In this document: one piece after another, positions 2,835 through 62,687 of the stretch
Layout: each line of letters opens with the position of its first letter
Numbering within the stretch: the stretch's first letter is position 1
Source of the DNA: an uncultured Bacteroidota bacterium
GTDB lineage: Bacteria > Bacteroidota > Bacteroidia > Bacteroidales > P3
Direction of reading: 5' to 3'
DNA length: 64,000 nt
NCBI GenBank assembly: GCA_902791695.1
Contig: CADAWR010000009.1
Coordinates: 62,001-126,000, forward strand
Made by a program: the position numbers and the translations under genes
The notes under the pieces: model-generated
The model's database searches: none
What the model was told of the DNA's origin: nothing
Seen by the model: only the letters and a program-made list of their open reading frames with translations

Positions 2835-2919
2835 CTCCGTACCCGCTCCGTACCCCCTCCGACAAAAAACCGTTAAACAACCGGTGAACAGTCGGAGCGG
2901 GTACGGAGCGGGTACGGAG
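2835..2919. repeat. Intergenic long hairpin, copy A
   Basis: The left arm 2835-2863 and right arm 2891-2919 are 29-nt inverted repeats with one mismatch, each made of iterated CTCCGTACCCG units. The 27-nt loop carries the inner module of the other copies only on its right side (TTAAACAACCGGTGAACA), while its left side is an A-run, so this copy looks partially deleted. It lies between the GT9 gene end and the porX start. It shares its sequence with the copies near 23.4, 33.0, 45.7 and 62.5 kb. Confidence 0.9.
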
Positions 2920-12089: not shown

Positions 12090-12209
12090 CGACGGCACGA
12101 TGCCGGTACGTAGCCGGTACGTCGTTTGTTCGTTCATTCTACGACATTTGTCTATCATCCGATCGGAGGAAGAACGGAGAGGGGTCGGAGCGGGTACGGA
12201 GGGGGTCCA
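12090..12209. repeat. Decayed copy of the intergenic hairpin element, copy G
   Basis: The right side (12185-12209) carries TCGGAGCGGGTACGGAGGG, the outer-arm unit of the other copies. The left side (from about 12080) has only related pieces (CCCCTACCCGCGACGG, CCGGTACG), and the arms no longer pair well. It lies in a 508-nt divergent spacer, upstream of the 12333 promoter. I see no gene in 12018-12525. Confidence 0.5.
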
Positions 12210-12332
12210 TACAAAAACCACGTTTTCAGCCTATTGACAAAACACCTGACAGGTGGCACCTCCGAAGGGTTAAGATACAGAATGACAAGCGATAGCGGAA
12301 TAACGACATTTTTTTGAGAAAAATGATGTTTT

Positions 12333-23288: not shown

Positions 23289-23420
23289 AAATCCTTATTG
23301 GGCCATAATTTAACATCAGCAGCCGGAAGACCGGTCTTTATATAAAATGAACGGCAAAGCTCTGTTTTTATTATAATGTAATACACCGGAACGATATTTT
23401 GCCGCCGCCACGCCGTTGCC

Positions 23421-23528
23421 GCTCCGTACCCTCTCCGTCTGTTCACCGGTTGTTCACCGATTGTTTAACGGTTTAAACCGGTGAACAACCGGTGAACAAC
23501 AGTAGAACAGATGGAGGGGAGGCGGAGG
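23421..23528. repeat. Intergenic long hairpin, copy B
   Basis: A long imperfect hairpin centred at 23474/23475 on CGGTTTAAACCG. Flanking it on the left are GTTCACCGGTTGTTCACCG units and on the right CGGTGAACAACCGGTGAAC; outer parts carry CTCCGTACCC-type units (left) and weaker copies on the right. It is in the divergent spacer between the EFR1 gene and korA; the 3' edge is 65 nt upstream of the korA -33 box. Nothing else is visible in 23289-23592. Confidence 0.88.
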
Positions 23529-23592
23529 GGAGACGGACAAGGTAGCGGGAGGAGGCGGAGGGAGGGATGTTGAAAGCGGTTGAAAAATAATT

Positions 23593-33015: not shown

Positions 33016-33031
33016 GGCTTTTTCAGCGTAG

Positions 33032-33140
33032 CCGCTCCGTACCCGCTCCGTACCCGCTCCGACTGTTCTACGGTTGTTCTACGGTTTTTTGTCGTAGAAC
33101 AGTCGGAGCGGGTACGGAGCAAGTACGGACCGGATACGGT
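33032..33140. repeat. Intergenic long hairpin, copy C
   Basis: A perfect 27-bp inverted repeat (33046-33072 with 33093-33119) reads CTCCGTACCCG-CTCCGAC-TGTTCTACG and its complement; outside it further CTCCGTACCC units extend on both sides. The inner unit here is GTTCTACGG, not the GTTCACCGG of copies B, D and E, and the opposite arm changes to match. It fills the gap between the thioredoxin and tsaD. Confidence 0.92.
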
Positions 33141-33164
33141 GAGAAAAACAGACTGATTGTAACA

Positions 33165-36789: not shown

Positions 36790-36898
36790 CCTTCGGTATT
36801 TCGACCATCGTTCAACCATACTTTAACCATCGTTTAACCATATATAATGGTAGAACAAAGGTTAAACGATAGTCGAACAATAGTAGGAAATCCGAAGG
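36790..36898. repeat. Intergenic long hairpin, AT-rich variant, copy F
   Basis: Left arm 36790-36841 and right arm 36847-36898 are 52-nt inverted repeats with mismatches around the apex ATATA. The arms are tandem GTTYAACCAT-type units; the ends are CCTTCGG / CCGAAGG. Layout and size match the GC-rich copies but the sequence of the units differs. It lies in the 559-nt spacer before the EcoRI-family methyltransferase, 45 nt upstream of its -33 box. Nothing else but the promoter and leader is seen in 36720-37278. Confidence 0.8.
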
Positions 36899-36942
36899 TA
36901 CGACGAACAAAAAGGGGGCTGGAGAGGCGCCATATAAAATAT

Positions 36943-45672: not shown

Positions 45673-45698
45673 AAAAATGTTTCACTACCTCAACTCAG

Positions 45699-45810
45699 CC
45701 GCTCCGTACCCTCTCCGTACCCTCTCCGACTGTTCACCGGTTGTTCACCGGTTGTTTAACGGTTTAAACCGTCGAACAATCGGAGAACAACCGGTGAACA
45801 GTCGGAGAAG
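45699..45810. repeat. Intergenic long hairpin, copy D
   Basis: A perfect 23-bp inverted repeat (45724-45746 with 45785-45807) of CTCCGACTGTTCACCGG units; within it a second imperfect repeat pairs CCGGTTGTTTAACGG with CCGTCGAACAATCGG around GGTTTAAACC. Left-side CTCCGTACC units continue outward. It is in a divergent spacer (45598-45925) between the PLP lyase gene and the RND operon, which otherwise holds only the two promoters. Confidence 0.92.
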
Positions 45811-45879
45811 AGTCGCATGGGGTACGGCGTGGCAATGGCACTTTTATTCTCTTTTTATGTATAATGCGAAAATAATTTG

Positions 45880-62397: not shown

Positions 62398-62487
62398 TTT
62401 TATTGTATATTTTTTATTATTATCAAATATTGGTATAACAGCACAACACCGTTTTTATTGTATGCGGAAGCATTTTTTTTATCATTT

Positions 62488-62615
62488 CTCCGACGCCGGT
62501 CCGTCCCTTCTCCGACTGTTCACCGGTTGTTCTACGATTGTTCGACGGTTTAAACCGTTAAACAACCGGTGAACAACCGGTGAACAGTCGGAGAGGGGAC
62601 GGAGAGAGGACGGAG
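62488..62615. repeat. Intergenic long hairpin, copy E
   Basis: Two arms of about 63 nt around GGTTTAAACC (62547-62556). The arms read CTCCG...CCGTCCCTTCTCCGACTGTTCACCGGTTGTTC and the complement, with few mismatches; inner units include TTCTACGATTGTTCGACGG on the left and CCGTTAAACAACCGGTGAAC on the right. It is the longest copy, in a divergent spacer (62398-62738) between the secreted-protein gene and the 7TM-HD gene, 72 nt upstream of the latter's -33 box. Nothing else is visible there. Confidence 0.92.
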
Positions 62616-62687
62616 AGGATGGGCTATAGGTTCCGGGGTAGAGATTGCGTGGTACGCGGCATGGGTGCAGGGGTAAAGGTTAAAAAT

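Follow-up and report, generated by a model that had tools for sequence, protein, structure and literature searches.

REP and BIME sequences have been linked to gyrase and supercoiling. The BOX elements of pneumococci are intergenic hairpins built from modules, the end modules being fixed and the inner ones varying in number. REP sequences are dispersed intergenic palindromes of 20-40 bp which carry GTAG or CGTC tags, fall into species-specific families, occur as foldable inverted pairs and mostly have unidirectional or convergent genes as neighbours (PMC3733652). The BrickBuilt MITE of Porphyromonas gingivalis consists of 23-nt direct repeats between a leader and a tail, has terminal inverted repeats and is present in 19 copies; of four intact copies, three have target duplications (PMC4596501). 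DNA uptake sequences (DUS/USS) are described as single short motifs that number in the thousands and frequently fall within genes; each species has one version, and the motifs occur as inverted pairs and at even spacing (PMC3630211, PMC1939737).

The window analysed here, a stretch of 64,000 nucleotides from the 2.17 Mb genome (G000) of an uncultured gut bacterium of the Bacteroidales, was reported in a preliminary description to hold one family of long intergenic hairpins at 2835, 23421, 33032, 45699 and 62488, with a variant at 36790 and a decayed copy at 12090. An inverted-repeat search found all five main hairpins, with arms of 29-68 nt, and the characterisation of the other two sites was also upheld; the seven sites are as follows.

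2835-2919, minus strand: loop-class element with 29-nt arms (97%); on that strand two direct units, then a T-run, lie between CTCCGAC and GTCGGAG
12090-12215, no strand given: decayed copy in which outer 11-nt units (outer-unit words) survive at 12180-12201
23412-23537, plus strand: full-class palindrome with GGTTTAAACC apex; inverted repeat 23413-23536 with 62-nt arms (77%)
33019-33146, plus strand: loop-class element with a longer stem and 54-nt arms (89%)
36790-36900, no strand given: variant, weaker hairpin (-43 kcal/mol) of other 11-nt units (TTTAACCATCG type)
45698-45833, plus strand: full-class palindrome with GGTTTAAACC apex and 68-nt arms (81%), divergent genes on either side
62487-62616, minus strand: full-class palindrome with GGTTTAAACC apex and 65-nt arms (83%), tandem genes on either side; the anchor copy

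Predicted folding energies for 160-161-nt pieces from the five main sites are -84 to -100 kcal/mol. All five lie between predicted genes, as had been claimed from the sequence; the element at 23412-23537 has divergent genes on either side and is upstream of a pyruvate-ferredoxin-oxidoreductase (PFOR)-like gene, and that at 33019-33146 is flanked by an AhpC/TSA-like and a TsaD-like gene. The shared apex, GGTTTAAACC, was found in three of the five good copies (23421, 45699 and 62488). The idea of a single family stood, with the amendment that the elements at 2835 and 33032 form a distinct loop class rather than simply being shorter hairpins. Above the gathering score the window has one match in Rfam, a tRNA, and no open-access paper was found whose title or abstract start describes this palindrome family.

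A covariance model built from 31 copies in G000 gave at least 150 matches over both strands, corresponding to 83 distinct places, and three more sites were recognised by pattern alone, so that the family, for which a genome-wide model search had been proposed at the outset, recurs well beyond the window at no fewer than 86 sites. Gene calls came from a home-made caller; the genomes are multi-contig drafts, and counts over a whole genome are lower bounds. The inner-unit pattern occurred at 65+59 places in the genome compared with 0+1 for a reversed-pattern control. Among the palindromes returned by a sequence-blind scan this family made up 8/8 and 7/8 on the G000 contigs C3 and C2, 4/4 in the window, and 27/27 and 12/13 on contigs C14 and C1 of a second genome of the genus, G029. 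The density initially put at about one per 10 kb was too high; 39 elements in 630 kb of G000 fully read give about one per 16 kb.

The elements consist of tandem 11-nt units in one 11-nt phase, arranged as mirror-image arms. In G000 there are three inner units of the form TGTTCNNCGGT per arm and outer units of the form CTCCGTACCCG, the commonest apex being that shared within the window. The second class, 10 of 35 elements in an arm scan of the same 630 kb, has an outer stem, and within it CTCCGAC and GTCGGAG enclose a loop of one or two direct units with a T-run. Per-position information for units 1-7 was 1.62, 1.65, 1.72, 1.55, 1.30, 0.80 and 0.31 bits in G000 (42 arms) and 1.91, 1.98, 1.86, 1.66, 1.23, 0.62 and 0.35 bits in G029 (58 arms); conservation thus declines stepwise from the apex, and neither terminal inverted repeats nor sharp ends were seen in the two genomes. 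The outer word CTCCGTACCCG is enriched outside arrays (44 vs 7, as 11-mers), and related outer words led to four further clusters in G000, of two or three words each, which are decayed or loop-class copies. A predicted gene was present on both sides of 72 of 74 arm-scan elements, and 71 of these 72 were intergenic; the neighbouring genes were divergent for 31 of the 72, tandem for 31 and convergent for 10. These observations support the view of the hairpins as one family, modular in build and dispersed between genes. Minor palindromes built from different short units occur at G000 C2:145458, window 36790 and G029 C1:258590.

Like REP/BIME sequences, the elements are dispersed intergenic palindromes with species-specific versions and folding inverted pairs. 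The earlier judgement that they are unlike REP nevertheless holds, since their arms are longer (29-68 nt as against 20-40 bp) and built from 11-nt units, divergent contexts are as frequent as tandem ones, and the richest genomes have no RAYT match. They resemble BrickBuilt in being dispersed hairpin-forming elements with tandem repeats in a Bacteroidales host, but their units are of 11 nt, their arms are mirror images and no terminal repeats or sharp ends were seen. The likeness to BOX lies in the modular intergenic hairpins, and the distinction, drawn from description only, in that no fixed end modules were seen here.

Elements of the family avoid one another. Among 102 elements from three species, taken from complete contigs in G000 and G029 and from stretches of a third genome, G019, only one of 88 gaps was shorter than 5 kb (4988 bp), compared with 27.8 expected under random placement in intergenic gaps of at least 30 bp (minimum 14 in 5000 draws); restricting placement to gaps of at least 100 or 150 bp gave means of 26.4 and 24.7. 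By species the counts were 0/36 vs 9.8 expected in G000, 1/37 vs 11.1 in G029 and 0/15 vs 6.8 in G019; since G000 and G019 have positions in common, their counts are not independent. The four extra decayed or loop-class copies in G000 were counted in the test and also respect the distance, and a G019 copy found later (C80, ~8640), outside the 102, lies ~5.8 kb from its neighbour. The smallest distance between any two of the 83 model matches in G000 is 5.9 kb. Taken contig by contig, the effect was strong in G029 C14 (0/20,000 draws equally low), weaker in G000 C3 (P 0.006) and C2 (P 0.03) for gaps <5 kb, and absent in G029 C1 alone (P 0.34). The rule does not extend to palindromes of other units: the variant hairpin at 36790 is only 3.7 kb from the element at 33019-33146, and the palindrome at G029 C1:258590 has an element only 112 bp away. 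Ten proteins from two of the four long element-free gaps had ordinary functions or no match, and none belonged to a mobile-element family.

Comparison between species has shown that positions are mostly stable between two of them, G019 and G000 (median nucleotide identity 84%). For 17 G019 elements at least one flank is syntenic with G000 DNA, and 16 of these have a G000 element at the same place, G019 C80:20415 being the sole testable element with no counterpart. At one place, C80:30760, G019 has a rearrangement junction, and each of the two partner places in G000 bears an element; at C126:10594 there is ~0.7 kb of extra DNA beside the element in G000. The window copies at 45698-45833 and 62487-62616 have counterparts at the same place in G019 (C88:36248 and C88:53140), the loop-class element at 33019-33146 corresponds to another of that class (C88:23557), that at 2835-2919 to a full-class element at the orthologous place (C88:308), and that at 23412-23537 to the place C88:13849 with one-sided synteny. 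The decayed copy at 12090 has no counterpart, the stretch 12.0-15.0 kb being missing in G019. Dispersal, if the word in the preliminary description is read as recent, is not borne out, since positions are largely common to species at 84% identity and conservation fades outward with no sharp end. Positions were not shared above chance between G000 and the more distant G029 (median protein identity 73%), with one gene end in common vs 1.7 expected and 0/2 conserved junctions. The region upstream of the PFOR-like gene has an element in G019 and none in two further genomes, G023 and G008, despite the same neighbouring gene. No target duplication was seen at the places examined, none of which offered a clean empty site. 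Synteny breakpoints between G000 and G019 coincide with elements at G000 C2 ~74.1 kb and ~114.3 kb and at G019 C80 ~30.7 kb, and another lies at the element at window 23421 relative to G019 C88:13849.

At the places common to G000 and G019 it is the sequence that changes. The apex and the units follow the species, and at the 16 shared places 11 elements are full class in both, two are loop class in both and three have swapped class. In the genome RUG12227 an element lies within a 3-kb block 94% identical to G000, yet its right arm differs, and in RGIG6226 an element at a place common to G000 is chimeric, its units being of TGTTCTACGGT type in one arm and of CTGAAGAACTA type in its partner. A one-sided tail motif was found in 28 of the 36 readable copies in G029 (vs 9.3% of random stretches). 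This tail is 50% identical between copies, compared with 32% for similarly aligned random stretches, whereas those 28 copies have 97% identity over the adjoining 44-nt arm; the opposite arm is 90% identical over all 36. A recent burst in G029 was rejected because the identities of tail and arm differ too much. The contrast between tail and arm, and the species-specific apex, units and class at shared places, support the conclusion that copies are homogenised in place into a species-specific version; recombination would be the agent. None of this, nor the spacing, is visible from one window.

The register of the two arms was examined in 19 of the 23 full-class G019 copies, selected from among the better palindromes; the four full copies omitted match less well. 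Two-sided changes numbered 13, with zero mismatches, at the column pairs 32/72, 33/71 and 34/70, and pair 15/89 had five changes with one mismatch. The covariation score in G019 was above that of shuffles (2/500 as high) but the count of pairs with two-sided change was not (499/500 as high). In G000 the paired cells amounted to 87.2% vs 85.7% in shuffled and at most 54.4% in slid alignments, and the count of pairs with two-sided change was again not above shuffles. The outcome of these whole-structure covariation tests is mixed.

Extension of the search to other Bacteroidales genomes, as had been suggested, was successful within the genus and not elsewhere in the order: the covariance model, which is bound to one unit version, had matches in 12 of the 37 genus genomes searched, G000 itself among them, and was negative in 24/24 same-order genomes. 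Palindromes of 11-nt units were found in seven of 32 genus genomes, each with its own units, and in none of the other 25 (14-40 kb each), and the elements are therefore not essential to the genus. Arrays with an 11-nt period were more widespread, with 27 in 15 of the 32 other genus genomes (samples of 14-40 kb); some are direct and non-palindromic. At control lags the same genomes had 0 arrays at 10, three at 12 and one at 13, and at other lags 35 at 7, 17 at 8, 11 at 9 and 17 at 14. A small search of other families of the order revealed no palindrome in 41 kb from five genomes and no array at lags 7-14 in four 10-kb stretches. Two pattern matches in IMG/VR, on contigs with no palindrome, were taken as chance. 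Tandem arrays of 7 and 8 nt (e.g. TTCATCAC.., AATTGAA.., GACTTTTA..) and palindromes of 7-nt units, all separate from the 11-nt family, were observed in stretches of G002, G010, G012, G014, G036 and G019.

The reading that we tentatively favour, with somewhat less than even confidence, is that the elements are old, mostly site-stable landmarks of 11-nt units which act at the level of DNA, are homogenised in place and are not transcripts. It is counted in favour of such landmarks that copies avoid one another over 5 kb, that 16/17 positions are kept, that versions change in concert, that arms are mirrored, that gene context is neutral, that one element in RGIG6226 is chimeric and that the three richest genomes gave no RAYT match. 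Against them are counted the absence of position sharing with G029 above chance, the 25 of 32 sampled genus genomes with no 11-nt palindrome, the differences in presence and absence, the spacing in G029 C1 and the mixed covariation. One arm may be copied from the other by hairpin or template-switch correction, so that the arms stay alike, while ectopic homologous recombination would homogenise copies genome-wide and give each species its own version. The arrays, or cruciforms formed by them, may be recognised by a putative DNA-binding factor covering about one helical turn per unit; they would then mark the chromosome every 5-20 kb, e.g. as topological or nucleoid anchor sites, and a nearby second copy might be redundant or harmful, which would produce the spacing. 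Of the two parts of this reading, homogenisation has support and the landmark function is inferred. That the arrays represent a new landmark class, self-excluding 11-nt palindromic arrays every ~5-20 kb which stay in place across species divergence and are rewritten in concert, arm by arm, into a species-specific version following a putative DNA-binding or DNA-processing factor, is a bolder and rather doubtful proposal. Long palindromes are generally regarded as unstable in bacteria; in these genomes they persist at shared places, avoid one another over 5 kb and are homogenised genome-wide. If they are landmarks a new chromosome-organising factor would be revealed, and if they are selfish DNA, strongly immune transposition that depends on a new enzyme. 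The series of species, with the same place in different versions, swaps of class and one chimera, makes rewriting testable by sequencing.

The possibility that the palindromes are selfish, non-autonomous mobile elements served by a putative enzyme is, though itself rather doubtful, a close rival and the most serious alternative. Target immunity, known for Tn3, Mu and Tn7, would space copies more than 5 kb apart, and places would stay while the sequence changes because new versions replace or home into old copies. It would suit such an element that exclusion operates within the family only, the other-unit palindromes at 36790 and G029 C1:258590 being tolerated nearby, that the one-sided tail in G029 points to common descent of a longer unit, that genomes differ in presence and absence and that G000 shares no positions with G029 above chance. 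The observations on ends and duplications are less favourable, sharp ends not having been seen, nor target duplication among places which provided no clean empty site. The same is true of the enzyme. The preliminary description had no RAYT or TnpA_REP-like gene in view, and a screen covering the Y1 family agreed with it genome-wide: Y1_Tnp (PF01797) had 0 matches in G000, G019 and G029, the three richest genomes, and was present in 28 of 41 genus genomes. Mobility by a RAYT is accordingly not supported, and the 5.9-kb separation of the nearest model matches means that no short transposase gene is framed by two copies. Repeat addition templated by a reverse transcriptase is disfavoured by the absence of RVT_1 in G000; there was one match below the cut-off in G019 and one above it in G029. 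Landmarks are preferred to a selfish element with immunity, by a small margin, because positions are mostly stable, no ends were seen and the Y1 screen found no enzyme.

An improbable alternative is that the elements are a by-product of replication with no function, in which slippage would lengthen arrays, template switching match the arms, recombination homogenise the copies and loss of SbcCD, the palindrome nuclease, allow long palindromes to be tolerated. SbcD was not found in G000, G019 or G029 and was above the cut-off in 18 of 41 genus genomes; the direct 11-nt arrays and the 7-8-nt arrays in genus mates, and the mirrored arms, also agree with such an origin. However, the association of palindrome density with SbcD in 35 genomes was not significant (p = 0.25; palindromes in 3/13 with and 10/22 without), and loss of SbcCD as a complete explanation was rejected for this reason. 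The 5-kb exclusion and the constancy of the 11-nt period among very different units would also be left unexplained.

Transcription terminators or RNA hairpins at gene ends are a very improbable interpretation: the predicted hairpins are stable and the loop class has a T-run within its loop, but the reading does not fit because in 31 of the 72 cases the element lies between divergent genes, neither of which ends there. Even less credible is a DNA uptake signal, by which the uptake bias of competent cells would drive evenly spaced sites to one species version; the species versions, inverted pairs and even spacing recall the published accounts of DUS/USS, and G000 and G019 have ComEC and DprA domains, but here the units are confined to almost entirely intergenic arrays, neither domain was matched in G029 (97% complete and with the most uniform copies), and outside arrays the 9-mers of the units were not enriched over reversed words, either in G029 (37 vs 40) or, as far as the inner units are concerned, in G000 (76 vs 107 and 67 vs 130), mild enrichment being seen in G029 for 7- and 8-mers (834 vs 597 and 208 vs 158).

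Some minor observations were made alongside. On both C3 and C9 of G000 the first model match begins at position 168, i.e. 167 bp precede it, and perhaps the assembly broke at the repeat. Very long predicted genes, of 12-19 kb, are present at G000 C3:29315-44858, 119439-138510 and 138810-151353. In the window, positions 1199-2752 on the minus strand encode a response-regulator domain fused to a PglZ domain, a combination known from PorX of type IX secretion.
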